27,961 nt of DNA from IMG/VR virus record IMGVR_UViG_3300046167_000561, positions 1-27,961 of that record. The stretch is one strand, 5' to 3'. Each line of letters starts with the position of its first letter. Position 1 is the stretch's first letter. Both the position numbers and the translations under genes were made by a program. The notes below the pieces were generated by a model. That model made no database searches. It was not told where the DNA came from and worked only from the letters and a program-made list of their open reading frames with translations. Source of the stretch: a virus. Of the stretch, positions 6,001-23,917 are shown one piece after another.

Positions 6001-6979
6001 CAATCAGACGAATGAGCTGATCGGTCCTATCTCGCGGGAGTGGGACATTGAGATAAAGCAGCGTCGTGATGAAGCATTTAGTAGTAAGAAGCACGGGCCT
6101 TTCAAAGCTTGGATGAAAAAGAATACGGTGACGGTAAACATGCGACTCTACGACCTTGATGGTGATACTGCGGTGCGCCGTAAAGATCCTAAGATTGAGT
6201 TGGAGCTGGAGAAGAAGTTGGGCAAGGCGGCTGCACGTGAGTTAATGTCACAGCAAGATCGTTTGTCGCAACTGTATCTAGATAACCGTCGTGCTGCATT
6301 CGATATGATTGAGGCAAACAACCTGGCTGTTAAGCATCCTAAGCTGAAAGCGGAATGGGTTAAAAAGAATGGATTCGCAAATGAGTATAGCGAGTACACA
6401 TATCGTATGCCAGCCCGTTTTATTAATGGTAAAGAAACCAAGTGGCATGATTCTCGCTTTAATGAGATGCAGAAAGAGCCTGCTGCTATGGAGTTCTATA
6501 CTATGTATCGTGAGCAGATGCGGGAGATGACTGCTACGTTGCCACGTCATGAAATGACGCGGAAACAAATTGCACTGATGGAGCAAGGCCTGTTTATTCC
6601 TGCAGTACAGCGGAAGCTAACGGATCAGTTTTGGAAGAAGGATAATAAGCGGCAGGAACTTACTGATGCTATGTACTCTTCTTTAACTACTAGGATTGAA
6701 GACAGTTTGGCAAAGTCCATTGACCCGGTCACTGGTGAAGTTCGTCGGAATCTGCCTACATACTTTGTGCAAGAGATTAAGAACAAGGCACAGATGGAGT
6801 ATGACCTCGATAAAAACTTCGCGGCATTCTCTATGATGGCTACTACTTATAAGCATAAGAACCTGGTAGAAGATGAGGTCCGTATGATCGAAGCTGTTTT
6901 AGGTGAGGTAGGTATTACCCATCAGAATGGTATGGGTCAGAAGATTCTGAATAAAGCCTGGAGCTGTTATGAGCAGTAA
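2..6979 (+). CDS. Giant virion protein, RNA-polymerase-like with metallopeptidase domain (5'-partial, frame-broken at 3' end)
   Basis: At least 2,325 codons; the first codons look mid-protein, so the true start lies left of the window. Around residues 690-740 the order R-x-P, then F, G, I, P and finally D728-F-D-I-D732 followed by K-M matches the beta'-type double-psi barrel of multisubunit RNA polymerases, whose metal-binding signature is DFDGD. Giant virion-packaged polymerases of crAss-like phages are the best known parallel. A proline/glutamate-rich linker starts near residue 1448. It is followed by a zincin-like domain with H1557-E-M-V-H1561 and a downstream E-E-F-I-A-E segment (E1651, E1655) that can supply the third ligand. 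The rest is charged and helical. Translation stops at 6977-6979, but matching sequence continues in other frames to 8509. Likely roles, by inference: early transcription from the virion and/or ejection, with a possible self-processing peptidase. It could also be a general ejection 'polyvalent' protein with a degenerate polymerase fold. Confidence 0.8.
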   Translation: MEEPDQIIARMSFMGNDNALDARKRPLSRHMLPTLADKSTMPLIRVQSMSAALMKQADAKGMPLIDVHIRDLIDVKGYYGEQLQYAVEKELDMIQSQRVNGVDAKFVLFPELNTLLPEGMITTKKRTELHAKAAANIEAELQTDFTYVMQQLEDEAYELTKNGAIGKVKFFNKNNTAFVKTHIGEQNAGVSPQGGLALFAAKYVAESRAVNAQSMLAFAGSTEAFLKIDNGAINTGKTIDNIGKRLAGLIAPGNAIPLMTLPNGKSNENINILVLQDKVHEAEHLDYLRKIGVPESEIKSKYSKIEAADAAEYVTAEEHLGILLAQGKMSEEEYNGILPKVKSGTKLDVDELSWFQPMKPVNVERGANGVMNYIKSAQFPLLPEFTKGTELDKLRKVMEEKNIDRAIHKTAYKVGSHNMPGINIYAEDGKIEIPEDIKDGQAVLSRRGMRIQQEVPVSRSKEKIHGSQVAKLVLANIAREEIDGFTVNGVKMNGKQAGEHYLAARKEERMVRRQIFADNYGFDVTNSGGNVRIEYTDEVKPKLAERIIEEAQSRGYDVAEISHLRLDLKKNRFRTPLWASISEERVNNLLQAIYRKEVIESKIAGFAGPIAPAIGLSYGEISDMKKSGIVWVGDKFDGKKLRVGVEGKPDQILMPWKFKGQLQKFIDPKTKRLDMAKVPEELLQVFAYRIPNQKKASSGSFEIVGFLPDSMGDTLIVPDELVGRIGQDFDIDKMFGMMYTHRLDKKTGNLAIVREGEKLQDRLAAARNRQIDVYHASMRNPNKDVQKEIHTPVSNGYSETLAFHLKGTNERMSPLSIRHNVRAAIGASSAKSAIGVMANANVVHTQMEMVNANAHYMKTVQDGDGNIITVPQVVRIAEDVDVEGPEVNQLAKLGKRDILDKNFLLEYPGGVESGTVQDQFSRLLNHAVDNANDQLLEKLGIDKYTYPFWVHMTNMGYNMETISMMVRQPEVREAIAVQRRFTAVSNNGYFDLIEHLQGKIEVAREGYKETYGSEAKVKSTMAKTVLASRAGIRSMEVDAQVEAQHNIKVLEAFKTLAEVERSYHTLLPALKMDTQSPKNRGEFFFKMERARVYREYHKHRDSETYEGPRYSITFDTFGSSTGTSMFLDSFMSSSVSGLGFKDAFDTNEAVLQLPGEHLEGTRFGESLIKAEGMLGQEFQTEYFKGLRSYLAAEWVEQRTGKSARTLRRELAVIQETSMARKYSTIMQNHSELRNNLFLKHLQAFDLAPNKEKLHTVEFQGDRTINVSPEQLHSAFLALARHDNAAVRDFATDLVHYDLVMRGTLGSKSFGKYIPGEMLQMMGIQDQYDPNQARFQRGMAEGKNKEMHRQIIQHNPKIAPVVEVDKPSGYRHIEHLVVFQQTNKNVSVGFVRDTGGRLYEIVGVNDAGEVKARGVAVAQNTYLYNLYSSQEELTNSHEFSEHYKENNLPPPPVEEEVPAGEAEVVSEEPRPVVAETEATVKPEEVAKKPLEGTMSFDEAVAAMGGENNVLLQRLMIMNEKLPAGNKVQVVFREGGHHKYNAGVITINSKKASPGRLAHEMVHHMSRIGVNMSQNKENRQRLTKVYDQVTKDSALASRFGLTTADIGRLQRGYKAMQNLKSLDEDSSAMVDVTFMMKTLQSNGAARGLLNLEEFIAESMTNPDFAAVLNEIKVSPNKTLLERVYEIIADIINTLNTEVLGDPIQLSKDSALAEVSAAAYAMMETTAEGLSNIKENGAGSQMELFSVVIPEGVEDEVLKATDAEVLKQYKKRRIAEFEELRARFGESPKVVADINKRILQERMELMALEDKDDDSVSAMILLDMADRELKDVDEVVRNVRKATTRDSRHAYAHARLQNAQAVIDFYSKGRKLLDTKGLTRGEIGRLQGAASQLQDDWLDVSAEILQNYARARYKGTELEKLIEGDTFRKMKDIGALNSLFLDASRVGRVELSYLDGVVRDAAQAQRAEWVARNEVFQEKSAAFKETAFFKKYKWSGMVKGTEDNQTNELIGPISREWDIEIKQRRDEAFSSKKHGPFKAWMKKNTVTVNMRLYDLDGDTAVRRKDPKIELELEKKLGKAAARELMSQQDRLSQLYLDNRRAAFDMIEANNLAVKHPKLKAEWVKKNGFANEYSEYTYRMPARFINGKETKWHDSRFNEMQKEPAAMEFYTMYREQMREMTATLPRHEMTRKQIALMEQGLFIPAVQRKLTDQFWKKDNKRQELTDAMYSSLTTRIEDSLAKSIDPVTGEVRRNLPTYFVQEIKNKAQMEYDLDKNFAAFSMMATTYKHKNLVEDEVRMIEAVLGEVGITHQNGMGQKILNKAWSCYEQ

Positions 6980-7196
6980 CACAGCAGTCTGCTCGAGGTA
7001 ATGTAGGCAGAAGTGTGCGAGCCTGTTATGGACAGCTTCTACGGTCGTCGCAGTAACCTAGAGGGTAAGGTGCTAGTTTGGTACAAAGAAAGCACGTACT
7101 GAAGCTGAAAAGAATCGTGAGGCATCTATCAAGCGTGGCCTTGAGCAGCTTGAAGAGGACCAGCGCACGGGTGCTATCCCGAAAACGATTGTATGA
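6955..7196 (+). other. Frame-broken segment joining pieces of the giant virion protein
   Basis: No single frame is open here, yet successive frames each give protein-like sequence that joins smoothly. From about 6958 GAVMSSNTAV is read in one frame. From 6991 ARGNVGRSVRA follows in the next, then MDSFYGRRSNLEGKVL from 7028, then FGTKKARTEAEKNREA from 7077 up to a stop at 7194. Each step is a shift of one extra base, near 6957, 6990, 7022, 7076 and 7182-7185 (AAAA run). Removing one base at each place gives one continuous reading frame into the next fragment. No separate gene is supported here. Sequencing insertions are the simplest explanation. Confidence 0.6.
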
Positions 7197-7881
7197 AGAG
7201 CAGAAGGCACAGCTTGAAAAAGACTTAAGCAATGTCGGTAGTAAGTATGATGCTGCTAAGGTGATTCGAACCTTTGTGCAGTACATGCAAATGAAAGGCA
7301 TGGCTTGGAACATTCCTGCTGCACAGGTAAACGCAGTCTTCGGTACAATGCAGGTAATGAAACACGCAGCCGGGCGACGTGACTTCGATGAGTCGGATGC
7401 ACGTAAGGCGTTTGGTATCATGATGCACAGTACGATGAACATGCTGACCTTGAATACTGGGGCAACAAAGACTGCAACTGCAGGTAAACTACAGGGGCTG
7501 ATGACTAACCTAAACCTCTTGAAAGACTTCACAGAGATAGAGTTTGATACATCTAAGGCAGATGTATTGGGTAATAAGCGTAAGGGTCGGGACAAGCTGC
7601 GGATGTATGAAATCCAACGCAGCTCGGAATACTTTACCTATGGGCATACAATGGTATCTCACTTGCTAAATGTTAAGGTTGATGGGGTGTCATTATTTGA
7701 AGCTACAGATGAAAACGGTATTATTCAGTTAGAGGGGTATCGTCCTGGAGAAGCAAAGTTTGTAGAGCTAGCAAACCGGTTAGATCAAATTAACAAGCGT
7801 ATCCACGGTAACTATGACCCGAATAGTATCATGCCTATCAAGCAGAACTCTGCTTGGTCCAATGCTGATGCAGTTCCGTAG
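7078..7881 (+). CDS. Fragment of giant virion protein (middle of C-terminal region)
   Basis: This open frame has no convincing start of its own. Meaningful protein begins at about 7192 (YEEQKAQLEKDL...), and the part before that is the wrong frame of the preceding segment. The product is helical and charged, with a DAAKVIRTFVQYMQMKGMAW stretch typical of the long helical tails of phage ejection proteins. It ends at a stop at 7879-7881. The neighbouring frame takes over at about 7859, where removing one C of a CC pair gives AWSMLMQFRSWLPEG. I therefore read it as an internal piece of the gene that starts left of the window and ends at 8509, not as an independent gene. Confidence 0.6.
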   Translation: MVQRKHVLKLKRIVRHLSSVALSSLKRTSARVLSRKRLYEEQKAQLEKDLSNVGSKYDAAKVIRTFVQYMQMKGMAWNIPAAQVNAVFGTMQVMKHAAGRRDFDESDARKAFGIMMHSTMNMLTLNTGATKTATAGKLQGLMTNLNLLKDFTEIEFDTSKADVLGNKRKGRDKLRMYEIQRSSEYFTYGHTMVSHLLNVKVDGVSLFEATDENGIIQLEGYRPGEAKFVELANRLDQINKRIHGNYDPNSIMPIKQNSAWSNADAVP

Positions 7882-8509
7882 CTGGTTACCAGAAGGTTTT
7901 GCAACGCGCTATGAGAGTGAACGCTTTGACCCACTTCTGAATCGGCAGGTTAAGGGAAGCATTCGTACTGTCCTGATGGAAGGGTCGGTAAGCGAACGTT
8001 TGCGTAAATTGACTGATGTTGCACTCGTGTCTGTCCCGCTTATCGGAGCAAGAAAAGACTTGCAAGGGTACACCGAAGTTGACGAAGAAAATGTCCGCAA
8101 GTTCGCGGCATCGGTACGTCAGATGATGTGGGTGTATCTTTTGATTTTAGCTCTACGCGCTATGAAAGATGACGAAGACGATGAAGAAGTGCGATACTTA
8201 TTTAACTATGGGTTAAATTTGTCGTCCCGCATTGACAACGATTTAAAGTTCTTTGGTCAAGTGGGGGCACAGCGTCGTATCGTACAAGATATTTTACCAA
8301 TTACTAAAGTTGCAGAAGATATCGAAAGGTTTGGGGGGTCGGTAATTGATACTATGATGGGTGAGGGTACAATCCCTACAGGCGTATATGCTGGAGAGTC
8401 AAAGCTCTGGCTACGTGGAAGTAAGTTGATTCCGCATACTGAAGCATATCAGCGGATCGTACGAAACTTTATCTCAGGAAATGAAATAATACTACCTGAT
8501 GCGACATAA
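7814..8509 (+). CDS. Fragment of giant virion protein (C-terminal end)
   Basis: The real sequence begins near 7860 with LMQFRSWLPEGFATRYESER, a pattern I associate with the C-terminal region of giant phage ejection/polyvalent proteins. The 15 or so codons after the first ATG are out of frame with it. One hydrophobic stretch (MMWVYLLILAL) is followed by an acidic DDEDDEE cluster. The final part is mixed helical and ends at 8507-8509. The stop overlaps the ATG of the secreted-protein gene by 11 bases, so the two genes are probably translationally coupled. With six single-base corrections the whole gene from position 2 would be about 2,833 codons plus the missing 5' part. Confidence 0.65.
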   Translation: MTRIVSCLSSRTLLGPMLMQFRSWLPEGFATRYESERFDPLLNRQVKGSIRTVLMEGSVSERLRKLTDVALVSVPLIGARKDLQGYTEVDEENVRKFAASVRQMMWVYLLILALRAMKDDEDDEEVRYLFNYGLNLSSRIDNDLKFFGQVGAQRRIVQDILPITKVAEDIERFGGSVIDTMMGEGTIPTGVYAGESKLWLRGSKLIPHTEAYQRIVRNFISGNEIILPDAT

Positions 8510-8984
8510 AACAATCTTGAAAACGCTTAGCCTACTTTGGTTAAGCGTTTTTCTTTCGTATAATAATAATGCTCAATGCGACGTGTCTATTACGGGAGTC
8601 GACGTCAATACCTATGAGGTTACGATTGAGGTTATTAATTCTATTGGTTGTACAGCAAACGGTCCCGGCGGAGTAGACGGCGCGGTAACTATGCTGCAGA
8701 TAGGCTATCACTTACCAGAACCAGTAGATATTAATAATGCGGTGGTAGATTTAGCCACGCTTCCTGACGGTCCATGCAGCCCACAGTGGGTAGCAAATGG
8801 TTATAACCTAGGAATGGTAGATGGCAACTACTCTGGTTGGTGGTATAGCCCTAGCGTGTCAGTCACTTTCGATTCTGATTTAATGGGAGATGGTCTAGAG
8901 ACGGGCGATGAGGTTGTAATTCCCTTTGAATCCGCCAGGCGATTACGTAGCGTACCCTTATCCATTAGCCGAGTGTGGGGATGA
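8499..8984 (+). CDS. Secreted T9SS-sorted phage protein, N-terminal fragment
   Basis: The start ATG overlaps the end of the giant virion gene. Residues 1-26 form a classic signal peptide: basic MRHK, hydrophobic LSLLWLSVFL, then a polar N-rich stretch with AQ before C27, a common Bacteroidota signal-peptidase site. The mature part is cysteine-containing beta-type sequence (NSIGCTANGPGG, CSPQWV, NYSGWWYSPSVSVTFDSDL), similar in style to extracellular adhesin domains. After VVIPFE the frame becomes meaningless (SARRLRS...). The adjacent frame continues sensibly as NPPGDYVAYPYPLAEC, so one extra base lies near 8925-8931. Repaired, the full gene runs 8499-10338 and encodes about 611 residues. Confidence 0.7.
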   Translation: MRHKTILKTLSLLWLSVFLSYNNNAQCDVSITGVDVNTYEVTIEVINSIGCTANGPGGVDGAVTMLQIGYHLPEPVDINNAVVDLATLPDGPCSPQWVANGYNLGMVDGNYSGWWYSPSVSVTFDSDLMGDGLETGDEVVIPFESARRLRSVPLSISRVWG

Positions 8985-9462
8985 CTTGATTGATTACTGG
9001 GTGTCTGAAGGTGAGTGCATTGAGTTTGTAGTGTGGCAACTCAACTACGGCTCCACCTGGCACACAGCTAATGGGGGTTGGGCTGAAAGCTTAAATGGTT
9101 ATGTACCTGATCCATCCACCTACCAGGATCAGAACTGCAACAACTCTTGGTACATGTGCCGAGATGAAAATCCTGGACCGCCTGTAGCTAACTCTGATAA
9201 TGAATGTTTGCCTATAGGTCCAGATGCCGAGATTATTAATGTAGTAATTACTACAGGTTGTATAGGCGATATGCCGTTCTACAATATCGAATATGTAGTA
9301 ATTAATAATGGGGACGAGCCGATTACAGAGTACTGTATAGAAATATGGAATGAAGACTACTATGTCTGCTTTGATTCCGATCTATTTGGTGCTTATGAGA
9401 TTCCGCCTGGTGAAGGGCAAACGTTTACTACCCCTTTCTTTGAAATGGACGGGACCGGGTAA
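8926..9462 (+). CDS. Secreted T9SS-sorted phage protein, middle fragment
   Basis: This open frame continues the preceding fragment. It has no signal peptide, and the ATG at 8926 lies upstream of the junction. The product is acidic and rich in W, Y, N and C (CIEFVVWQLNYGSTWH, YQDQNCNNSWYMCRDENPGPP), then holds an Ig/CARDB-like stretch (IINVVITTGCIGDMPFYNIE, then VVINNGDEPITEYCIEIWNE). That resembles extracellular beta-sandwich repeats found before sorting domains in Bacteroidota surface proteins; the fold assignment is my inference. The frame ends at a stop in ACCGGGTAA. Dropping one G of the GGG run at 9457-9459 gives DGTGNLFVISVDS and joins the next fragment. Confidence 0.65.
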   Translation: MNPPGDYVAYPYPLAECGDDLIDYWVSEGECIEFVVWQLNYGSTWHTANGGWAESLNGYVPDPSTYQDQNCNNSWYMCRDENPGPPVANSDNECLPIGPDAEIINVVITTGCIGDMPFYNIEYVVINNGDEPITEYCIEIWNEDYYVCFDSDLFGAYEIPPGEGQTFTTPFFEMDGTG

Positions 9463-10276
9463 CCTCTTTGTTATTAGCGTCGATAGTGTAAATGATGAAA
9501 TTATTACAGGAAATAATAATGAAACTGTTTGGCTGCCGGAGATACCAGAGTGCCCAGTAGAATGTGTGCCAGATACAATAGAGATACTTACTACACTATA
9601 CGAGTTTGATACGCTATTCGTAGCGATGTATGATACGATTATAGAATACATAGAGTTGCCTCAAGACACAATTGTTATGTTAGAGGTTGATACTTTAATA
9701 GAGTACGTCGAGCTGCCTCCTGACACCGTAATGATTGTCGAGCTAGATACCGTCTACTGGGAATACTACTTCTATGATACTGTTTATGTAGACGTAATAG
9801 ATACAATCTATATTAATGTTTTAGATACTGTAGTCATTACCGAAACAGATGTACAGTACGTGTACATTACAGATACTCTAGAAGTGCCGGTAACAGACAC
9901 TCTTTATATTACAGATGTAGATACTCTTATGCAAGAGGTTCTCGTGTATGAATACATCTATAGTACGGACACGATTTATGATGTGGTATACAACGATGTG
10001 CTAGTTGATTGCAGCACGGGCTTGCCTTGTGAGAATGGGTTTACGGGAACGGACTGTCGTTCAGTATTTGTTCCGAATGCTTTCTCTCCTAATAACGATG
10101 GCATTAACGATACTTTTTACGCAGCGTCAGAGTCTTACGACTGCTGGCTAGAGTGGCAGCTGATTGTGTATAACCGATGGGGTGATGTCGTATGGTCTTC
10201 AACCGACCCTAACATTCAGTGGTATGGGCAGATTGTCAACGAATGGCAAGCGATGGTGTATATATTTGGACCTTAA
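9350..10276 (+). CDS. Secreted T9SS-sorted phage protein, DT-repeat stalk and start of sorting domain
   Basis: True coding sequence starts at about 9461 (NLFVISVDS...); the preceding codons are the wrong frame. From about 9570 to 10000 the product repeats a D-T-hydrophobic pattern (FDTLFV, YDTIIEY, LDTVYW, YDTVYVD, IDTIYIN, LDTVVIT, TDTLYIT), a stalk-like beta repeat. A cysteine cluster (CSTGLPCENGFTGTDC) follows. Then comes SVFVPNAFSPNNDGINDTF, the unmistakable opening of the T9SS type-B (gliding-motility-associated) C-terminal domain, and VYNRWGDVVW. The frame stops at 10276. The end of the domain (SDGVYIWTLRARG, then LLDGSVTLFR and a stop at 10336-10338) is read in another frame from about 10249, and two single-base removals near 10240 and 10248 restore the join. 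Confidence 0.75.
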   Translation: MKTTMSALIPIYLVLMRFRLVKGKRLLPLSLKWTGPGNLFVISVDSVNDEIITGNNNETVWLPEIPECPVECVPDTIEILTTLYEFDTLFVAMYDTIIEYIELPQDTIVMLEVDTLIEYVELPPDTVMIVELDTVYWEYYFYDTVYVDVIDTIYINVLDTVVITETDVQYVYITDTLEVPVTDTLYITDVDTLMQEVLVYEYIYSTDTIYDVVYNDVLVDCSTGLPCENGFTGTDCRSVFVPNAFSPNNDGINDTFYAASESYDCWLEWQLIVYNRWGDVVWSSTDPNIQWYGQIVNEWQAMVYIFGP

Positions 10277-10338
10277 GAGCGCGAGGTCTTGCGGGTAATA
10301 CCCTACTATTAGACGGTTCAGTTACACTCTTTAGATAA
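10249..10338 (+). other. Out-of-frame C-terminal end of the T9SS sorting domain
   Basis: In this frame the sequence reads SDGVYIWTLRARG, and then a segment ending in DGSVTLFR and TAA. This is the expected last strand pair of a gliding-motility-associated C-terminal domain (consensus DGVYxW ... GxVTLxR). It lies directly after the upstream fragment that carries the first part of the domain but in a different frame. No start codon or independent gene is implied. Confidence 0.65.
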
Positions 10339-10619: not shown

Positions 10620-10898
10620 CTACTCTGCCGGAGGGTTGGGAACGCGTCCGCAAATCATGTGCTCAGAAATAAGCACATGGTTTTCACCGTCGATAGGAAT
10701 AATTAAACCTTTCGATTCGGGATGCACCATTACTACGTCTCCAACTTGTACAGTCCGGCACTCAGGGCCGACTGCTAATACAGGTAAGACGTAGGAAGGG
10801 GTCAAGTTATCCTGCTGTGTGAGGATGATGCCTGACTTAGTTTTCTTCTCTTTTTCGTGTGGAAGAATCACGTAGTTGTGCGTAGGAATAAAATTCAT
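10620..10898 (-). CDS. groES: GroES-like co-chaperonin (Cpn10)
   Basis: Ninety-two residues against about 97 for bacterial GroES. The early PTHNYVILPHE strand corresponds to the GroES 'DRVLVKP' strand. A flexible-loop region KKTKSGIILTQQ retains the hydrophobic IIL tripeptide that contacts GroEL. The core then gives VLAVGPEC and VQVGDVVMV, and the chain finishes with ISEHMICGRV, as in Cpn10 proteins. Phage co-chaperonins cap the host GroEL chamber, usually to help fold the major capsid protein; that role here is inferred. No GroEL is present, so the host's would be used. It is the last gene of the minus-strand module, convergent with the virion module. Confidence 0.85.
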   Translation of the reverse strand: MNFIPTHNYVILPHEKEKKTKSGIILTQQDNLTPSYVLPVLAVGPECRTVQVGDVVMVHPESKGLIIPIDGENHVLISEHMICGRVPNPPAE

Positions 10899-11045: not shown

Positions 11046-11058
11046 ACTGCAAATATAG

Positions 11059-11144
11059 TAGCTGAGGCGGGACTCGAACCCGCACGACCTGTTCAGATCA
11101 ACAGATTTTAAGTCTGTCGTGTCTACCAATTCCACCACTCAGCC
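11059..11144 (-). tRNA. tRNA-Leu (UAA)
   Basis: The minus strand folds as a class II tRNA. The acceptor is GGCTGAG pairing with CTCAGCT (one G-U) with discriminator A at 11059. The D-arm region GTGGAATTGGTAGACAC is typical of tRNA-Leu. The anticodon arm is ACAGA-CTTAAAA-TCTGT with anticodon TAA. A long variable arm follows, then T-arm GCGGG-TTCGAGT-CCCGC. CCA is not encoded (CTA follows), so host maturation is needed. It lies between the uracil-DNA glycosylase and the small basic protein on the same strand and probably comes from the same transcript. It would decode UUA/UUG leucine codons. Confidence 0.93.
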
Positions 11145-11151
11145 AACCAGG

Positions 11152-11838
11152 TTACCAATCTATTGCTTTGGAACCATGTTGTATTAGAAAGTTATTTGCT
11201 TTCTGAAAATGCCCGCAACCAAAGTACCCAGCCTTGCCACCAGCGTACACTTCGGCAGCTGGGTGCGGTGCTTTAAGGACTAATTGATTGGGCATAGTAA
11301 AGAAACTCTCGTATTCTTGAGCAGCTTTACCCCATAGCATAATAACTAGGGGTTCTTCAGACTCGCGAAAGTTGAGAGCATTTAAAGAAGCTGCAATGAA
11401 CTTCTCCCATCCCCAGCCGTGATGAGACTTAGGTGCGCCTGCATCTACGGTAAGGATTGTATTAAGAAGAAGGACGCCCTGCTCAGCCCAATGGCTAAGG
11501 TTGCCTCCCTCTTTCTTTAACGGACCAACGCTGCCTTTAATCTCCTTTTGGATGTTACGTAAAGACGGGTTGATTTTAGGACTGTCGCCTACATCAAATG
11601 CTAGACCAGTAGCGACCCCATCATGGTAGGGGTCTTGACCTAGGATAAGTACGCGGGCGTCATTCAGAGGTGTGTCTCGGTACGCTCTGAAGATGTTCTT
11701 GCCAGCAGGGTAAACAGTACCAAACGTATAGCAGACCCCCAATTTTTCTTTGAGAGTCTGCATATACTTTGATTCGAATTCAGCATCTAAATGCTTAGCC
11801 CATTGTTTACCTACGGCGTGTTCATAGGTTGTCACCAT
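11152..11838 (-). CDS. ung: Uracil-DNA glycosylase (family 1)
   Basis: Removes uracil from DNA, leaving an abasic site. The 228-residue length is normal for family 1. Residues 67-72 are GQDPYH, with D69 the expected catalytic water-activating aspartate. LLLNTILTV (123-131) is the uracil-pocket asparagine strand. PHPAAEVYAGG (191-201) takes the place of the usual HPSPLSAxRG minor-groove/leucine-intercalation loop, keeping H192 but with SPLS replaced. The residues between conform to the family (NPSLRNI, W-x-x-QGVLLLN, H-HGWGWE, LWGKAAQ). It overlaps the upstream nuclease gene by 17 bases. Phage UDGs usually serve repair of dUTP incorporation. The altered loop suggests shifted intercalation, but the identification is secure. 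Confidence 0.95.
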   Translation of the reverse strand: MVTTYEHAVGKQWAKHLDAEFESKYMQTLKEKLGVCYTFGTVYPAGKNIFRAYRDTPLNDARVLILGQDPYHDGVATGLAFDVGDSPKINPSLRNIQKEIKGSVGPLKKEGGNLSHWAEQGVLLLNTILTVDAGAPKSHHGWGWEKFIAASLNALNFRESEEPLVIMLWGKAAQEYESFFTMPNQLVLKAPHPAAEVYAGGKAGYFGCGHFQKANNFLIQHGSKAIDW

Positions 11839-12835
11839 CGGGGAATACTAGATTTTGGATCATGCCCATCTGAGTCTCCATAGAGTTACCCCAGTTATTA
11901 CGAGCTAAGTGAAAAGCAATCCGGTCAAGATGTGCTTCGTATTCTTTCATTCCCTGCACCAGATAACTTTCGTCAATCTTAAAGACCTCCGCAGGGTACT
12001 CTTTATTTGTTTGTACTGCAACAATATAAGATTCCGTTACCTCATACCCAGGGTATGCTGTCTCTAAACACATGCGATAGTATGCAAGTTGACGGTGGTA
12101 GTGGTACATTCCAACCGTCTCTTCGAACCGGCCCAAAGCTTTAGCCGTAGTCTTTAAATCAACTAAAGTGATAGACTTGTTCTTATGGTCAAATAAGATG
12201 CGGTCTATCTTTGCTTTAATAGGAACATTGATAAGCTGGTCGTTTTCTGCAGGCCATTCTAGGTCAAACGTAATCTCAGTCTCAGCCATTGCTTCATCGA
12301 ATTTGCCGAAGCCGTCTTTACAGATCAGCTCATTAGCAACTTCATGCATCTTAATAGATTCTATGCAGCCTTGGACGGTGTGATATGTAGCAGGGTCGAC
12401 AATCATTTTGCCAGCGCTTGTACAGATACACTTCCAATAATCATTGCCGTCCTTTAAGATACGGTTGATTTTAGTTTGGAGTCCATTACTCTTGTAGAAG
12501 TCTGCAGGTATCACAGCTTCCCAAGTATCGTTCTGGATAGACTCTAACTCAGTGATAGGAACCTCGTCTGCATCAATGTTACTGTAGAGCCTATTGTACA
12601 AAGAGTCAATGATGTCCTGAGTTTTAGGACCGGGTACATTCTCTGGTACAATGTCTAGCTTTCCAGGTTCTAGCAGCTCTTCATGGATGAGTGTACCAAT
12701 CTCAAAAGATTTGGATGACTTCTGTTCTAGTTGCCCATCAAGGAATTTCCGGAAGAGGCGGGGATTACCCCCGCTCTCCGGATCAATATAGTTTAGTGAG
12801 CTGTTACTCACTGCTTTAATTTCAAAATAGCTCAT
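11822..12835 (-). CDS. PD-(D/E)XK nuclease, RecB/exonuclease VIII-like
   Basis: A 337-residue protein of the phage exonuclease type that resects double-stranded DNA ends for recombination. The N-terminus reads S-x-L-x-Y, then PRLFRKFLDGQ and FEIGTLIHEELLEP (H51), the typical opening of PDDEXK exonucleases. The catalytic core is IKAKIDRILFD (D211) followed by ITLVDLKTT (D226-x-K228) and a Q-L-A-Y-Y-R helix (Q249, Y252-Y253) that normally completes the active site. It overlaps UDG by 17 bases and the GATase-GGCT gene by 4, placing it in the same transcript as the Sak4, NinB and RusA recombination genes. Whether it acts as a processive exonuclease or a Cas4/RecB-like enzyme cannot be told from sequence alone. 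Confidence 0.85.
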   Translation of the reverse strand: MSYFEIKAVSNSSLNYIDPESGGNPRLFRKFLDGQLEQKSSKSFEIGTLIHEELLEPGKLDIVPENVPGPKTQDIIDSLYNRLYSNIDADEVPITELESIQNDTWEAVIPADFYKSNGLQTKINRILKDGNDYWKCICTSAGKMIVDPATYHTVQGCIESIKMHEVANELICKDGFGKFDEAMAETEITFDLEWPAENDQLINVPIKAKIDRILFDHKNKSITLVDLKTTAKALGRFEETVGMYHYHRQLAYYRMCLETAYPGYEVTESYIVAVQTNKEYPAEVFKIDESYLVQGMKEYEAHLDRIAFHLARNNWGNSMETQMGMIQNLVFPDGDNL

Positions 12836-13893
12836 GTGAAAAGCGTAAGTTGTTTAGATGTGATCTCCTTGTATTCTTCGTCAGTAAGGTACTCATCTGT
12901 CGTAAGATTAAACCACATGTTCTCTCCTTTATCCCAGATGAAATCGAATCCGGCTTCACTGTTATGGTAGTCACCGTAGTCTTCTAACTCGTCAAACACA
13001 GAGCTTCTATACAAAGAACTTGTAGTCGGTTTCCTGTACTTGCCGAAGTCATCGTAAAAGCGCATACCTTCTACATCTACGGTATCATTAAAGTATAGCC
13101 AAGCTGTAACTACGACACCATTGTCTAGCTTAACCTTTATCTCTTTACGCTCGTACCATTCAGGATGGTTCTCCAAGCGATCGACCTCTTTAAGAGTCTC
13201 GTCGTTTACAGCGTATACTTCTACAGTTAGGTTGTTACCGTCTTCTCTATGACCGGAAGCAACATACGGAATGCCTTCACACACCATAGCATACTGATCA
13301 ATGGTAATGCCGCTATCTAGAAGACGAGCATCACTAAGAAGCCGGTGATTGCCAAAGCCTTTACGCAATGTGCCATACACCGCAATCAAGTGAGGCTTGT
13401 CAATTACGTTTGGCTTGCTATAGTACACGCCGTCTTTTTCGTGCCACTTGCCAATACGGTTAACGTAGACCTTGCCTGCTTTACTCATACGGGTATAGAC
13501 AAAGCGACTATCAGTAAGAGATAGGATATCCTTCCATGTTTGCCAGGGAGATTTACGCAAGGTCTCTGCCACGAAACGAGTGTCAGACTTCTTTATATCC
13601 CATGTATGAGGTACTTGTACAGTACCGTTATGGAATAGCCAGTTGTGTTCATTGACTTGAACTGGGTGCGTATTCGCTAGGTTAGTCTCTCCCATTGTTG
13701 TTAGGCGAGAGTGGAAGATATACGGACGCTCAGACTGTAGCCAGTCCTGAGCTTCTGCAATGTTCATAGTACGGTAGATGTTACCGTCGTCTAGGGTTTG
13801 GATACCGAATCCGTGGGGGTTGTATGCCAGCGCTTGGGCGGCAATAGAGGGATCAAGCTTCCCGGTTTGCTTCTTGACTATAATCACACACAT
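12832..13893 (-). CDS. Class II glutamine amidotransferase fused to gamma-glutamylcyclotransferase (GGCT/AIG2)
   Basis: Two domains in one 353-residue chain. Residues 1-160 form an Ntn-type class II glutaminase: Cys2 becomes the N-terminal nucleophile after Met removal, with HGFGI (27-31), FHSRLTTMG (60-68), FHNGTV (87-92) and S103-D-T. Residues 168-290 are a GGCT/AIG2 domain with AVYGTLRKGFGNHRLL (171-186) and a downstream LENHPEWYER containing E241, the probable catalytic glutamate. A variable acidic tail follows. The gene overlaps the amidoligase gene by 41 bases. Comparative genomics of amidoligases has noted such enzymes next to glutaminase and AIG2-like partners. By inference, the glutaminase frees ammonia and the GGCT cleaves or remodels gamma-glutamyl amides. 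The substrate is unknown. Confidence 0.85.
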   Translation of the reverse strand: MCVIIVKKQTGKLDPSIAAQALAYNPHGFGIQTLDDGNIYRTMNIAEAQDWLQSERPYIFHSRLTTMGETNLANTHPVQVNEHNWLFHNGTVQVPHTWDIKKSDTRFVAETLRKSPWQTWKDILSLTDSRFVYTRMSKAGKVYVNRIGKWHEKDGVYYSKPNVIDKPHLIAVYGTLRKGFGNHRLLSDARLLDSGITIDQYAMVCEGIPYVASGHREDGNNLTVEVYAVNDETLKEVDRLENHPEWYERKEIKVKLDNGVVVTAWLYFNDTVDVEGMRFYDDFGKYRKPTTSSLYRSSVFDELEDYGDYHNSEAGFDFIWDKGENMWFNLTTDEYLTDEEYKEITSKQLTLFT

Positions 13894-14803
13894 CGAGAGT
13901 GAGTTGTTTTAAATTTGACTTAACCGTAGGGTCGGGTTGGACAATGAGTCTGTTCCTTACTCCGGTTGGAATTAGAGTGCGCACCTTACTGTAGGCTACC
14001 CACTCGATTGATTCTACTGCAAAGGCTTTGCTATATGCAGCAGCAAGCATGACTTTCTCGCCATACTTCTTTTTGTACAAGCTGTAGATATGCCCGCCCA
14101 ATTCTGTATTGATATCGAGCAAGTCCTTGTATACCGTATCCCAAGAAAGATCGTCGTATTTCTCTGTGGTAAAGAGGATACGTAAGAGCTTTACTCGCCA
14201 TTCTAGCTGCTTGAGATTCTTGATAGCACTGAAGATTCTAATCTCCATACGATCGGAATGCCCAAGGTTAATAGCGTTGTATCGCTCAGAATAATCGTTC
14301 TTAGTATAGAACTTAGAGTAGCCCCTGCGCTTAGCCCGCTTAGGGTACAAAGCATAAAGGAGCGGGATAATCTGAGCAGCCTTATCAATATACCACTGAG
14401 GACTAGCGTCGTGTTTAGAGATGGTAATGTGCCCACCGCACTGAAAGTTTACGCTTGAGTGGATGAGGTAATTAAGTACAGGCTCACTAAGGTGTTGCTT
14501 GTATACATCATTCTCTAGATTGTAGATAGGGCTGATAATCTCAAAGCCATGCATGCCCAGGGAGCCGTCACGTTCTGCACGCCAAGAGTGAGGAAGGTAT
14601 TCTTCTCTGCACCCTTGGTATAGCTGACAGATATGTTTACCAGCTAGATCTTCTTTCTCTGCCTCGATACCAAAGCGATACTTTGTGCGTGGGCTAGTCT
14701 CCCACATAGCGCTAACAGAGTGGTACCCATATAAGTCTCCGTGACTAAAAGGGGCGTCTTCCATTAACGTCTCATACATGTCTACTTTTACTTCGGTTGA
14801 CAT
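13853..14803 (-). CDS. Amidoligase (COOH-NH2 ligase, glutamine-synthetase-like fold)
   Basis: The 316-residue protein carries the Amidoligase_2 motif series in order: FGIEAEKE (44-51; E47, E49), ERDGSL followed by HGFEIISP (77-92), CGGHI (122-126), RYNAINL (174-180; N176) and MEIRIF (186-191; E187, R189). These are the ATP/Mg- and substrate-binding positions of glutamate-cysteine-ligase-like enzymes that form amide bonds. The second histidine often seen after GGHI is a threonine here. It overlaps its 3' neighbour (the GATase-GGCT fusion) by 41 bases and its 5' neighbour by 16, implying coordinated production. Likely reaction: ATP-dependent ligation of an amine or ammonia to a carboxylate on a peptide, protein or wall fragment. 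The target is not deducible from sequence. Confidence 0.85.
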   Translation of the reverse strand: MSTEVKVDMYETLMEDAPFSHGDLYGYHSVSAMWETSPRTKYRFGIEAEKEDLAGKHICQLYQGCREEYLPHSWRAERDGSLGMHGFEIISPIYNLENDVYKQHLSEPVLNYLIHSSVNFQCGGHITISKHDASPQWYIDKAAQIIPLLYALYPKRAKRRGYSKFYTKNDYSERYNAINLGHSDRMEIRIFSAIKNLKQLEWRVKLLRILFTTEKYDDLSWDTVYKDLLDINTELGGHIYSLYKKKYGEKVMLAAAYSKAFAVESIEWVAYSKVRTLIPTGVRNRLIVQPDPTVKSNLKQLTLDVCDYSQEANREA

Positions 14804-19576: not shown

Positions 19577-20117
19577 GTGGTAGGTCTTCTATAGGTGTTT
19601 CTTTCATCATATCCCACAGGTCCACAAAGGACTCTGCTTGTAACCACTTGTCGATACGCATGCTTATAAGCTTACGTTCCTTTGCAAACTTCAAAGCCTT
19701 CATGACTTTGCTGTGGTCGTGCACACTACCAACATGTTTGTGATACCACCTTACCAGTTCTTCTTTGTTAACTGCTTTAGCCGGTATCTTTTTGCCGTCA
19801 ATGGTTATGAACGGGGGGTAAGTCTTCCAGAACTCTTCCCCATCAGTAGTAGACACCGCATAGAAAGCTTTGACAAAAAGATCGGTAACCTCATAGAAGT
19901 CCGCATACTTAGAGTCTTCACTAGGATTAGTGTCTACAATAAACCCTTTCACTTCAAGATCTTCCAAGTATTCTTTAGGGAATATCTGCCCCTCTTGGGC
20001 AATCTTGTAGAGCAGGTCGTGCCGCCGTTCATATATGATTTGGCAGAACAAAACTTGAATCGGACTGATGTCTAGCTTCAGCAGTACATCTACGTACTTA
20101 TCGAGCGGGTACACCAT
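19560..20117 (-). CDS. Hypothetical replication protein, winged-helix-like (possible initiator or helicase loader)
   Basis: The 185 residues begin with a helical region reminiscent of a winged-helix/MarR-like fold (SPIQVLFCQIIYERR, LEDLEVKGFIV, then FYEVTDLFVKAFYAV). The middle segment FWKTYPPFITIDGKKIPAKA and VNKEELVRWYHKHVG resembles the C-terminal part of phage replisome-organiser proteins. The gene overlaps the DnaB gene by 17 bases, the classic position of a loader or initiator. The call is inference from context and general fold; no catalytic motif is visible and no Walker motif is present, so it is not a DnaC-type ATPase loader. Confidence 0.55.
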   Translation of the reverse strand: MVYPLDKYVDVLLKLDISPIQVLFCQIIYERRHDLLYKIAQEGQIFPKEYLEDLEVKGFIVDTNPSEDSKYADFYEVTDLFVKAFYAVSTTDGEEFWKTYPPFITIDGKKIPAKAVNKEELVRWYHKHVGSVHDHSKVMKALKFAKERKLISMRIDKWLQAESFVDLWDMMKETPIEDLPHDRII

Positions 20118-20379
20118 TCTTCATCATAATTACTTGTTCTACATTACGGGCATCAAACAGCTCCTCTTGAATATGTTCTAGAGAAGCTTCTAAATTATAC
20201 TCTTCACTCAGTGACAGCTGGAACTGCCAGGGCTGATCGGCCCACTTCCTCTTGCCAGACTTAACTAGCAATAGGATTTCTGAGTAGAGAGTCGTTGCAC
20301 TTTGTGAGTAGCTCCTTAATGGAGTGGACCCACTGGACATTCGCGGACTTGCTTTGCCGCTTTTTGAGCCATTTTTCAT
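20098..20379 (-). CDS. Small hypothetical protein; true start probably TTG at 20271
   Basis: As an ATG-initiated frame the product is 93 residues, but its first 36 codons lie inside the 3' end of the SF2 helicase gene and look compositionally random (KNGSKSGKASPRMSSG). The remaining part (LVKSGKRKWADQPWQFQLS, then SEEYNLEASLEHIQEELF) looks genuine. A TTG at 20271-20269 overlaps the helicase stop by 11 bases and would give 57 residues, fitting the tight coupling of this operon. The product overlaps the winged-helix-like gene's start by 20 bases. No family recognised. A frameshift in the helicase end is an alternative. Confidence 0.5.
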   Translation of the reverse strand: MKNGSKSGKASPRMSSGSTPLRSYSQSATTLYSEILLLVKSGKRKWADQPWQFQLSLSEEYNLEASLEHIQEELFDARNVEQVIMMKNGVPAR

Positions 20380-21499
20380 CTTGAGTATCTTTCAGATAAA
20401 GATTAATAATTACACCGGTCTTTCCTTCCTGAAATCTAATAGCTCGACCTGTTCGTTGCAAGTCTTGCCGTGGAGTAGAAGTACCGGAGCATACAATAGC
20501 CAGCTCAATACCCTTTACATCAAAGCCCTCGTCTAACGCACGTGCTGTGTGTATCACACGTATGTCTGTTCGAGCATCTGCAAAGGAATCCAACACGTTC
20601 TGGCGAGCGTACTTGGACATTTTAGAATGATATGCTGCACCCCAAGGTTGCGTCTCTTTATTCATTTGTATAGCGAAGTCAACACTCTCGCTAAAAGTGA
20701 TTGTTGGCACATCGAATATCTCAATGAGTTTCTTTGTAGCCTCACGTTTAGTAGCACTCTTGTAGATGAGCTGCTTACGTTTTTGCATGGCACGGTTGAA
20801 AGCACGGGCTTGATTAAGTACCTGCTGTTCGTCCCAACCTGCTAAGTTTCTAGTGAATACTGAGAGGTATTGCCGATCGGTCATACAACGCATCGCTGCG
20901 TGAAACCGGTTGTTAAAGATAGCGAATGCTTTGTAGTAGTCATCCGTTATCAGCTTGTATTCTTTCTCCTCTTTCTCGCCCATGCGTAGACCGAGGTTAA
21001 AGACTTGAAACTGTGATACATAGTTGTTACGCACAGCTTCCCGAAGAGAGATAGTATCTATGACTGGTGCAGCACTAGAGATGATATGAAACCTAGGGTC
21101 TTCATGATCCAGTGTAGCAGTCAAGCCAAGGATATACCGATAGTCGGTACACGCAAAGATACCTCGAAATACATCAGACATATAGTTGTGTATCTCGTCA
21201 AGTATCAACAAGTCACACTCAGTTTGTATTTTAACTGCGCTGTTTATGACTCTAACTGTTGTGTTAGTGATACCCATCTCTTCGATCTGACTCTGCCATT
21301 GGTCTCGCAGATTCTGAGTGGGCACTACCACCAATGCAGTACCTGTAGGTAACCGCATGTTCAAGTCTTGCAGGATAAGCAGAGCAACGTAAGTCTTACC
21401 GAAGCCTGTTACAGCCTCGAGAGTACCACGTCGCCCTGCTTTAGTCCATTTGTCTATGACCTGCTGCTGTCGTTTAAGTCGCCGCTGGTCAATTTTCAT
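20261..21499 (-). CDS. SF2 DNA/RNA helicase (DEAD/DEAH, UvsW/XPB-like)
   Basis: The 412 residues contain the superfamily 2 motif set: Q-x-x-x-x-x-W start (RLKRQQQVIDKW), motif I LEAVTGFGKTYVAL (28-40), Ia VVVPTQNLRDQW (57-68), motif II LLILDEIHN (97-105), motif III GLTATL (125-130), motif IV region ITFSESVDFAIQM, V ARALDEGFDVKG, and VI LQRTGRAIRF. Two RecA-like domains are therefore present. Short SF2 helicases of this kind in phages remodel forks and recombination intermediates or branch-migrate junctions, consistent with the neighbouring resolvase and annealase genes. Overlaps with small genes at both ends indicate translation as part of the operon. Confidence 0.9.
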   Translation of the reverse strand: MKIDQRRLKRQQQVIDKWTKAGRRGTLEAVTGFGKTYVALLILQDLNMRLPTGTALVVVPTQNLRDQWQSQIEEMGITNTTVRVINSAVKIQTECDLLILDEIHNYMSDVFRGIFACTDYRYILGLTATLDHEDPRFHIISSAAPVIDTISLREAVRNNYVSQFQVFNLGLRMGEKEEKEYKLITDDYYKAFAIFNNRFHAAMRCMTDRQYLSVFTRNLAGWDEQQVLNQARAFNRAMQKRKQLIYKSATKREATKKLIEIFDVPTITFSESVDFAIQMNKETQPWGAAYHSKMSKYARQNVLDSFADARTDIRVIHTARALDEGFDVKGIELAIVCSGTSTPRQDLQRTGRAIRFQEGKTGVIINLYLKDTQDEKWLKKRQSKSANVQWVHSIKELLTKCNDSLLRNPIAS

Positions 21500-21957
21500 A
21501 AGCTATAGAAGTATTAATACGTTCTTCGTGTACCCAATCCCATGACTCTCCCCACATTTTACCTTGTGGCATCTCGATAAATGCATGAGCATAGCCGCCA
21601 TCATTGATTTCACATACATCAAAGCGTTCATAAATAAACTGACCTAGTGTGTAGTCATTATCCCTCTCCTACATATACTACCGAATTACGTGTAATTCCA
21701 TCATGCCCTTGCTTTGGTTTAACGAGGTAGTATGTCCCAGGCCCATTTTCACCAGTCTGGTAAATAGGGGGTGCAGATCCGTATTGTTTAGAATACTTTA
21801 CCCCTTGCGGAGTTAAGAAATTAATCTCTTCTATACCTCCGCTGTCACCGCAGCCTTGCCAATGAATATGTACGCCGGGGAAATCACGAGGGCTGACGGA
21901 GTGCGTCTTGTATAAGTCCTCCAATGTGTCGAGGATCTCTCTTGGAATCCGTTCCAT
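21489..21957 (-). CDS. Hypothetical protein with WQGCGDSG motif, probably frame-split (about 155 aa)
   Basis: The first frame (21957-21658, 99 residues) starts at ATG with PREILDTLEDLYK, contains VHIHWQGCGDSGGIEEINF, and stops after YVGEG. One base on, an open frame with no usable ATG near its beginning reads NDYTLGQFIYERFDV then CEINDGGYAHAFIEMPQ, ending at 21489-21491, in overlap with the helicase start. Reducing the run of three C at 21662-21664 (plus strand) to two joins them as VGEDNDYTL, giving 155 residues. The W-x-G-x-GDSG...EI pattern followed by an E-I-N-D-G-G-Y element reminds me of DUF6878-type proteins, but I hold that weakly. Function unknown. Confidence 0.55.
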
Positions 21958-21967
21958 TTTCTTTAAA

Positions 21968-22378
21968 TTAAGCTACTCTTGCTGCTAGTAAAGCAGAATT
22001 GTAGTCGTGTTCTGGGCTAAGGACGTAATGCTGGAATGCTTTTACATTGATGAGCATAAGACCGTCTTCTGATTCGTTTACAACCTGCGCTTCTTCGGCT
22101 TGTAATCGAGTAAGGTATACGTCACTACGTATTACCTCAAGAGCTTCAGGCCAGCCATAGCTTTCTCTAAACTCGTAGAATCTAGCGGCTAATGCTCCTG
22201 CAGAACGGCCTTTACCATGTTCTTTATTCAGATCTAGCACTAGTTGGCGTGTCCCAGAGGAGTGTTCAGGGAGATGGGGCTTTTTATTGTAAAGCTTTGT
22301 AAGGTTCCTCATTTTTACTTCCATTAAAAGCATGAGGTCTTCTTCGTTAGACCAAGTCTTTGAGCTGCTTTGGTTCAT
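21968..22378 (-). CDS. Myb/SANT-like DNA-binding protein, 136 aa
   Basis: The N-terminal 70 residues contain KTWSNEEDLMLLMEV (7-21) followed by GRSAGALAARFYEFR (57-71). The spacing between the tryptophan/EED helix and the second, recognition-type helix, and the S-x-x-A-L-x-x-R-F motif, are characteristic of Myb/SANT-like helix-turn-helix domains in which an insertion separates the helices. The rest is unknown. The first ATG overlaps the previous (DUF6915-like) gene by 32 bases. A regulatory or DNA-binding role is inferred from the fold resemblance. It could instead be a SANT-like accessory domain with no regulatory role. Confidence 0.6.
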   Translation of the reverse strand: MNQSSSKTWSNEEDLMLLMEVKMRNLTKLYNKKPHLPEHSSGTRQLVLDLNKEHGKGRSAGALAARFYEFRESYGWPEALEVIRSDVYLTRLQAEEAQVVNESEDGLMLINVKAFQHYVLSPEHDYNSALLAARVA

Positions 22379-22715
22379 GATGTTCTAATTTTAATTTACG
22401 ACCGGTCATCCAGAACTCTTTTGGGATATCCTTTAGCCAGTCTTGTACTGATGGGACAAAGCCCAAGTCTTCTACGATATGCGTCTCGGCAATGGTCCTA
22501 ACAGGTACCTCCATGCCGTCGCTATTCATTATTGTCTTTCCGAATTTCTCTTCGCAAGCAAATACGCCAAAGCTATGATGACGCAAAGCACGATGTCGAT
22601 GGTCACTAAAAGCAATCTTAGAGCCATCAATCCACTCATGTATAGCCAGATAGTCTTCTGGAATACCACGAAAGCGACGAGTAGTACTAACAGCGTGATG
22701 ATAAGCATGAGCCAT
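22347..22715 (-). CDS. DUF6915-like protein
   Basis: The 122 residues closely follow a known pattern. The start is MAHAYHHAVSTTRRFRG followed by PEDYLAIHEWIDGSK, then DHRHRALRHHSFGVFA, FGKTIMNSDGMEVPVRTIAE, and H-x-x-EDLGFVP with VQDWL. This histidine-rich layout is how I recall DUF6915 proteins, which have no assigned function. The many conserved His and Asp residues (H3, H6, H7, H26, D38, H39, H41, H45, H46) suggest metal binding, which is inference. The start is coupled to the upstream 79-aa gene through a TAATG junction. Confidence 0.7.
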   Translation of the reverse strand: MAHAYHHAVSTTRRFRGIPEDYLAIHEWIDGSKIAFSDHRHRALRHHSFGVFACEEKFGKTIMNSDGMEVPVRTIAETHIVEDLGFVPSVQDWLKDIPKEFWMTGRKLKLEHHEPKQLKDLV

Positions 22716-22954
22716 TATAAATCGAGTATTGTTTCTCTTAGGTCTATCCCTCTTTCTTTAGCAGATTTAACGAGGTCTTTAAAACTAGATCTAAAGAGAA
22801 TGGTTTTCTGAGATTCAACATCCTCTAAGACATATGCAGATAGCTCTCTGTATAGCCGGTACTTACCCCTACGAGGAGCCTCGAGGACTTCCTTGCATAC
22901 TGCTTGGATATCCTCGAGGACTTCTCTGTAAAGGCGGTGCTGCCGTATGTCCAT
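22715..22954 (-). CDS. Hypothetical protein, 79 aa
   Basis: A charged, all-helical small protein. It contains a short internal duplication, EVLEDIQAVCK then EVLEAP, 11 residues apart, reflected in a 13-base direct repeat in the DNA (22879-22891 and 22912-22924). It joins both neighbours by TAATG overlaps (upstream DUF932-like stop, downstream DUF6915-like start), so it is clearly part of the translated operon. No family or function recognised. Confidence 0.65.
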   Translation of the reverse strand: MDIRQHRLYREVLEDIQAVCKEVLEAPRRGKYRLYRELSAYVLEDVESQKTILFRSSFKDLVKSAKERGIDLRETILDL

Positions 22955-23715: not shown

Positions 23716-23917
23716 TCTGAAGAATTTTAATTGTTGCTGTTACTCTTGTTATTTCTGCTAGCAGTCTATCGTGTTTTTCACTGCTGATCTCGGGGTCGTG
23801 TAAAGAAAACTGTACCAGGCGGTCGAGATAGTCCACCCAGTATAGCATGCGATGGTGTAATGGAAGATGCTCATATCGGTTAAACGAGCTGATTTCATAT
23901 ACTTTCATTTGCTCCAT
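23540..23917 (-). CDS. Hypothetical protein, 125 aa, basic low-complexity tail
   Basis: The first 70 residues are a plausible helical domain (HHRMLYWVDYLDRLVQFSLHD, then SSEKHDRLLAEITRVTATIKIL). The last 50 are a serine, lysine and arginine-rich low-complexity tail ending VRRSDRKSKAARVNNS. The tail is read from DNA that also encodes the start of the DUF932-like protein in another frame (176-base overlap). The 5' end overlaps the polymerase gene by 13 bases, so translation of the N-terminal part is well supported. The tail may be real (nucleic-acid binding) or a by-product of a frameshift that hides an earlier stop. Function unknown. Confidence 0.55.
   Translation of the reverse strand: MEQMKVYEISSFNRYEHLPLHHRMLYWVDYLDRLVQFSLHDPEISSEKHDRLLAEITRVTATIKILQNEPNNRVIESKATAKPAVQESVVSTSNSTSNKNVRSGSKRRAVRRSDRKSKAARVNNS

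Follow-up and report, generated by a model that had tools for sequence, protein, structure and literature searches.

A minimal phage amidoligase and glutaminase-cyclotransferase pair with putative sliding-clamp-binding tails

Introduction

The virus record IMGVR_UViG_3300046167_000561 is a stretch of 27,961 bases (hereafter the window; coordinates are window positions) that carries two overlapping genes, one for an amidoligase and one for a single-chain fusion of a class II glutaminase with a gamma-glutamyl cyclotransferase (GGCT) domain. An earlier note on this DNA had described the two as a candidate amide-modification system. The pair and its conserved residues are supported here, but the kind of system is not new, since such a cassette is known from phiEco32-, LUZ24-, and RIO-1-type phages; what appears to be new relative to the described cassettes is the presence of conserved clamp-type tails on the pair. 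Our favored reading, advanced tentatively and as somewhat short of probable, is that of a glutamine-fed, ATP-dependent amide-forming pair tethered to the beta sliding clamp of the host and acting there on a protein of the replisome or on freshly made DNA. The amide-forming chemistry of the pair is likely, and the tether of the module to the host clamp is plausible. The tail motif, absent from the earlier note, is in our reading the first sequence clue to where the window version acts.

Results

The amidoligase

The 316-aa protein (P0002) has no match in Pfam, PF12224 (Amidoligase_2) included, and is filed here as a divergent relative of that family rather than a member for this reason; one of its 16 relatives matches PF12224 at E=0.068, and the search against PHROG yielded only a weak match, to phrog_7469 (E=0.003). 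Direct comparison by hhalign with the amidoligase type that does match PF12224 (P0009, E=3.5e-30) is likewise weak (probability 26%), and homology was therefore traced stepwise through an intermediate type, P0008, exemplified by MW202828. The window type aligns with the P0008 type at a probability of 98.5% (E=2.5e-15), and the P0008 type with the P0009 type at 85% (E=6.5e-6). The seven best Protein Data Bank (PDB) matches of an AlphaFold model of the amidoligase (pLDDT 67) are all glutamine synthetases (GS), at modest Foldseek scores (best E=4.3e-3, TM ~0.3).

Residues G45, E47, E49, D79, S81, E88, H125, R156, E187, and R189 are invariant or nearly so across the three amidoligase types, being present in 64–66 of 66 sequences. 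The motif series that had been listed for this protein is thereby upheld for E47/E49, D79/S81, H125, and E187/R189 but not for N176, which is not conserved across types. Loss of active-site residues in homologues would have spoken against the earlier description; the residues are kept over deep divergence, both in the amidoligase and in the fusion. Through this chain of profile and residue evidence we take the 316-aa protein to be a real amidoligase, and the hhalign chain to the PF12224 type, together with the conserved active-site residues, argues for the GS-like enzyme that the earlier note had claimed.

The glutaminase-GGCT fusion protein

In the 353-aa fusion protein, the GGCT domain matches PF06094 over residues 171–276 (E=1.2e-21; 77.9 bits against a cut-off of 22.8). 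The class II glutaminase domain stays below the Pfam cut-off (GATase_6, E=7e-4; 20.1 bits vs. 27) and matches phrog_4736 in PHROG at E=8.6e-6. Residue conservation was read from an alignment of 112 sequences, counting at each position the sequences that cover it. Cys2, R63, T66, G68, N74, P77, N89, G90, and D104 are unchanged in all 106–107 covering relatives (Cys2 in 106/106; R63, N89, G90, and D104 each in 107/107), and it is because of this invariance that the glutaminase domain is considered real despite its sub-threshold profile score. The YGTL loop of the GGCT domain and Glu241 are present in all 111 covering sequences. Glu82 of human GGACT (PDB 3jub) aligns with Glu241, and the chain of 3jud equals that of 3jub except for a Gln at that position; we take Glu82 to be the catalytic residue of GGACT, and the difference between 3jub and 3jud at that residue agrees with this assumption. 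These results bear out the earlier description of a Cys2 class II glutaminase and a GGCT domain in one chain.

Glu225, in the stretch VEVY, had been a candidate for the GGCT catalytic residue and was dropped, given that Glu82 of GGACT aligns with Glu241 and that 74 relatives carry Asp, not Glu, at position 225. The P0008-type fusions (L086-L138, L257-L336) have Asp at the position of Glu225. An AlphaFold model of the fusion protein (pLDDT 46) was not used. A scan of cellular genomes returned only three near-full-length fusions, all on contigs of metagenome-assembled genomes (MAGs) and two of them phage-derived in appearance.

Pairing of the two genes

Of 80 loci reached from fusion genes, 75 have an amidoligase gene on the same strand at a distance of at most ~4 kb, and three of the five misses are contig edges. 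An independent start from P0008-type amidoligases finds the fusion in 63/63 loci whose downstream sequence extends for 5.5 kb or more, and window-type amidoligases have the fusion at every locus where the contig continues. These sets were gathered by sequence patterns of the proteins themselves, which favors near relatives, and the counts are not independent events, the phages being partly related. Co-occurrence, which the earlier note had asked to be set against chance, is far above it in both search directions. The same fusion partner is, moreover, kept by three amidoligase types so divergent that profile methods are needed to relate them, and on these grounds the amidoligase and the glutaminase-GGCT protein can be regarded as a genuine functional pair.

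The amidoligase gene ends inside the fusion gene. The 41-base overlap previously described is exact in position, lies on the minus strand, and measures exactly 41 nt in all pairs of the window clade, down to ~45% amidoligase identity. This conservation is in keeping with the proposal that the fusion and the overlap serve matched production of the proteins, a coupling that the gene arrangement suggests.

Clamp-type C-terminal tails

The fusion protein ends in QLTLFT. QLxLF is the consensus of beta-sliding-clamp-binding peptides, which are usually C-terminal and are recognized by the clamps of distantly related bacteria (PMC4549789, PMC3716654). The pattern Q[L/I/Y]x[L/M]F occurs within the last 10 residues of 18 out of 18 nonredundant sequences of the window clade vs. 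0 out of 49 from other clades, and shuffled tails yield an expectation of 0.04 against the 18 seen. Six variants occur (QLTLF, QLSLF, QLDLF, QYELF, QIKMF, and QIKLF), each of which keeps the clamp consensus while leaving the x position free, and the synonymous nature of codon changes at Q, L, L, and F, combined with variation of the middle residue, indicates that the tail is selected at the protein level. No other predicted protein encoded in the window or in the relatives G001, G002, G004, and G005 has a C-terminal match of this kind. A second candidate, QLDMF at residue 253 of the DNA polymerase, was set aside as the site of a conserved S-x-x-QL stretch of family A polymerases; this stretch lies between the exonuclease domain and the polymerase domain, and QLDMF-bearing relatives are too alike to discriminate.

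Near its own C-terminus the amidoligase carries QLTLDV, conserved as QLxL(D/N)V with T, V, R, or S at the x position and with varying Leu codons, in a region that the AlphaFold model renders with low confidence, as if disordered. Because the gene overlap fixes the final two residues of this motif, it is only suggestive. Bacterial clamp domains, when searched for, were found in control genomes, Bacteroides included, and in none of these phages, while a search for the T4-type clamp (PF02916) was uninformative, with no signal even in controls. Since no bacterial-type clamp gene was found in these phages, the clamp concerned would be that of the host. In the open-access literature searched, neither the clamp motif nor the occurrence of the pair in crAss-like phages turned up.

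Table 1. Positions of the gene pair, its domains and motifs, and the adjacent nuclease gene in the window.
Feature	Position	Strand	Basis
Amidoligase (P0002), 316 aa; distant from Amidoligase_2 (PF12224) but related to it, with a probable GS/GCL-like fold	13853..14803	-	ORF, hhalign chain, Foldseek, conserved active-site residues
Amidoligase motif G45-I-E47-A-E49 (metal/ATP-site acidic pair)	14657..14671	-	G45, E47, E49 in 65/66
Amidoligase motif E77-R-D79-G-S81	14561..14575	-	D79, S81 in 64/66
Amidoligase motif C122-G-G-H125	14429..14440	-	H125 in 66/66
Amidoligase motif E187-I-R189	14237..14245	-	E187, R189 in 66/66
QLTLDV, amidoligase residues 300–305; possible weak six-residue clamp-binding motif	13889..13906	-	QLxL(D/N)V conserved
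Overlap of amidoligase and glutaminase-GGCT genes, 41 nt	13853..13893	-	Amidoligase gene ends inside fusion gene
Fusion protein of class II GATase (glutaminase) and GGCT in one chain, 353 aa	12832..13893	-	ORF, PF06094, GATase_6, invariant residues
Class II glutaminase domain, ~residues 1–160, nucleophile Cys2	13414..13893	-	Invariant residues; GlmS glutaminase weakly matched at 58–111
GGCT / gamma-glutamylamine cyclotransferase domain, residues 170–276; YGTL loop 173–176, catalytic Glu241	13066..13386	-	PF06094; alignment with human GGACT 3jub
QLTLF, fusion residues 348–352; putative beta-sliding-clamp-binding motif	12838..12852	-	18/18 in clade; consensus QLxLF
PD-(D/E)XK exonuclease (exonuclease VIII-like), neighbor gene	11822..12835	-	PF12684, PF12705, phrog_412

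Gene neighborhood and phage identity

The pair lies inside a replication/recombination operon that comprises genes for an exonuclease VIII-like nuclease, a uracil-DNA glycosylase, NinB, RusA, a primase, Sak4, a DnaB helicase, and a family A polymerase (PolA). The exonuclease VIII-like gene, which shares 4 nt with the glutaminase-GGCT gene, is a member of this operon and stands outside the enzyme pair. The uracil-DNA glycosylase family protein (PF03167; 11152–11838) is encoded in the same operon and kept in relatives. Several conserved genes of the operon at 20098–23917 have no assigned function; their homologues in G001 include DUF6915 (E=8e-42) and a DUF932 protein.

A Crass_capsid major capsid protein is found in the near relatives G001, G002, and G009 at E=6e-84 or better, and it is for this reason that the window is considered a fragment of a crAss-like marine phage (Crassvirales); the capsid gene itself lies outside the fragment, and the assignment rests on these relatives, which measure 77–81 kb and also contain terminase and portal genes. 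The GGCT domain of the fusion is 49% identical to the stand-alone GGCT of a Flavobacteriaceae MAG, a resemblance that fits a Bacteroidota host.

Elsewhere in the window, a homologue of a 4,910-aa G001 protein is split into three frames at 6979–8509, with breaks near 7057–7195 and 7845 that are likely assembly indel errors, since the protein is unbroken in relatives. Three frames at 8499–10335 together encode a secreted-type protein whose C-terminal part carries FVPNAFSPNNDGINDTF and which is a single 422-aa open reading frame in G001; here too the frame splitting probably reflects sequence errors. The FVPNAFSPNNDGINDTF stretch is typical of C-terminal domains of Bacteroidota gliding and secretion proteins. 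A GroES-like co-chaperonin (phrog_3188, E=9e-14) is encoded at 10620–10898, in a window without GroEL, and a tRNA-Leu (anticodon TAA) at 11058–11144 is flanked by the GroES-like and uracil-DNA glycosylase genes.

Discussion

In the mechanism that we propose, the class II glutaminase, as its family and complete residue set suggest, would use Cys2 to hydrolyze glutamine and release ammonia, or would pass on the gamma-glutamyl group. The amidoligase, to judge by its probable GS fold and conserved residues, would activate a carboxylate with ATP and couple it to ammonia or an amine, and the GGCT domain would free amines of their gamma-glutamyl groups, released as 5-oxoproline, and so trim away a by-product or protecting group. 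The observed 41-nt overlap would keep both proteins in step. In the window clade, the C-terminal Q-L-x-L docking peptides, perfect (QLxLF) in the fusion and weaker in the amidoligase, would keep the module at replication forks by holding it on the beta clamp of the host, where the tethered module would act on a replisome protein or on newly made DNA. While the motif is seen directly, clamp binding, the scaffolding of two enzymes on one ring, and the target are what it would imply. If the module is tethered to the host clamp, as is plausible, the substrate would probably be found at the fork, and the location of both genes inside the replication/recombination operon counts in favor of the clamp. 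A fuller version of this proposal, replication-coupled amidation in which the pair rides the host sliding clamp, a two-pocket homodimer that would hold both enzymes, and forms amide bonds on a replisome protein or new phage DNA, must be deemed rather doubtful at present.

Several observations weigh against tethering to the clamp. Operon position is weak evidence, early phage genes being grouped anyway, and the amidoligase tail, which ends in V rather than in L or F and whose last two positions are forced by the overlap, provides a weaker argument than that of the fusion. P0008-type fusions (L086-L138, L257-L336) present a zinc-ribbon-like CxxC...CxxC tail instead of the clamp motif in 67 of 70 cases, and since other clades keep the pair without the motif, clamp docking is not essential to the chemistry; the zinc-ribbon tails may constitute another targeting route for the same chemistry. 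Lastly, a motif of five residues may have some other origin, and the clamp was invoked after the alignment had been inspected, so that strong statistics are here attached to a short motif.

The docking consensus also admits two other roles at the replication fork. The pair could take part in DNA base hypermodification, the amidoligase amidating or decorating a modified phage base and thereby shielding the DNA from host nucleases, as would befit a clamp-type tail and a position in a replication operon. Some of the 7-deazaguanine modifications of phages involve class II glutaminases, a point that also counts in favor of this role. The relatives, however, contain no thymidylate synthase-type base-modifying enzyme, and none was recognized among the annotated genes (genes of unassigned function remain); furthermore, the amidoligase would depend on a base bearing a carboxylate, and the annotated genes showed no enzyme to produce such a base, which renders hypermodification quite improbable. 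Host replication shut-off, in which the tail would mainly compete for the pocket of the host clamp and the enzyme would modify or merely mask it, is compatible with the presence of the docking consensus, with the failure to find a phage-encoded bacterial-type clamp, and with the phage having its own PolA, DnaB, and primase. For simple masking, however, two conserved catalytic domains and an amidoligase would be superfluous, and we consider shut-off very improbable.

The families involved lend themselves to a metabolic interpretation as well, in which the pair would act as auxiliary metabolic genes, making or recycling gamma-glutamyl amides or glutamine-derived ammonia for host metabolism during infection. 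Both GGCT and glutaminase belong to metabolic families, PHROGs places this GGCT under auxiliary metabolic functions, and a role in nitrogen metabolism has been proposed for Phage-ZRK32 (PMC10945688). Bulk metabolism, however, does not require a divergent amidoligase to be strictly paired and overlapping, nor does it require a docking tail, and hosts already make glutamine and glutamate; such a role is therefore improbable.

The remaining alternative stems from the known cassettes. Amidoligase, a second COOH-NH2 ligase, glutaminase, ATP-grasp, and GGCT genes form cassettes in LUZ24/PaP3, phiEco32, and RIO-1-type phages, to which a putative function in peptidoglycan modification has been assigned without direct proof (PMC3890496, PMC5498523). 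Cassette genes of this sort are expressed, as glutaminase, ATP-grasp, and GGCT have been detected by proteomics among the early products of the phiEco32-like phage SU10 (PMC4281155). As in phiEco32, LUZ24, PaP3, and RIO-1, amidoligase, class II glutaminase, and GGCT occur together in the early/replication region of the window. PaP3 encodes glutaminase and GGCT in separate genes, along with the second COOH-NH2 ligase and an ATP-grasp, whereas the window has two genes only, with a glutaminase-GGCT fusion, a 41-nt overlap, and clamp-type tails. No PF14395 second ligase was found in the window and 15 related records (possibly fragments), the PaP3 control giving a match, and a RimK-type ATP-grasp (PF08443) had no match in the window version, a weak negative in that the annotated ATP-grasp of PaP3 was missed too. 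On gene content, the window system is best described as a minimal version of the known cassette.

Under cell-wall modification, which is the published guess for phiEco32-, LUZ24-, and RIO-1-type cassettes (PMC5498523, PMC3890496, PMC10580990), the amidoligase would amidate or cross-link peptidoglycan stem peptides and GGCT would remove gamma-glutamyl pieces, altering the cell surface and blocking superinfection. Cassettes with the same three activities carry this interpretation (PMC5498523, PMC10580990; PaP3 operon), but the published role is itself an inference, and neither of the two extra cassette genes was detected, with the above caveat for the RimK-type enzyme. Peptidoglycan, moreover, lies outside the cytoplasm, such that only its precursors would be within reach, and the clamp-docking tail is left unexplained. 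We hence regard a cell-wall role as unlikely for the window version, and tentatively retain action at the host clamp.

Other systems share parts of this arrangement. Phage C75C1 (OQ984151) and Caudoviricetes sp. MW202828 also encode a glutaminase-GGCT fusion with an amidoligase upstream, but their fusions are only 37–38% identical to that of the window, their amidoligases are of other types (that of C75C1 belonging to PF12224), their genes do not overlap, and the clamp motif is absent. The MW202828 amidoligase (L041:6218-7942), labelled as hypothetical, has a long N-terminal extension and lies upstream of the fusion. Human GGACT shares the YGTL motif and the aligned catalytic Glu (Glu82 to Glu241) and is a stand-alone enzyme, whereas the GGCT of the window appears fused behind a glutaminase. 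In butirosin biosynthesis, the ligase BtrJ adds a gamma-glutamyl group that the GGCT enzyme BtrG removes. This is likewise a ligase paired with a gamma-glutamyl cyclotransferase, but BtrJ is an ATP-grasp enzyme working on an antibiotic carrier protein, and the butirosin system is not known to include a glutaminase fusion or to be phage-borne. Transposases with a C-terminal QLxLF offer a precedent for this short motif at the end of a protein from a mobile element, although they are DNA-cutting enzymes and the window protein is a glutaminase-cyclotransferase (PMC4549789).

Genes for amidoligase, glutaminase, and GGCT are widespread among phages, and their role in the cell wall has been guessed at for more than 10 years without a tested target. 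Their near-total pairing in hundreds of uncultured phages shows them to form a real and common module rather than an occasional passenger, of which the minimal two-gene form is the easiest to reconstitute. The conservation of a clamp-docking tail in one clade makes the question of the target testable and, if true, the clamp tether would shift the search for the substrate from the cell wall to the replication fork.

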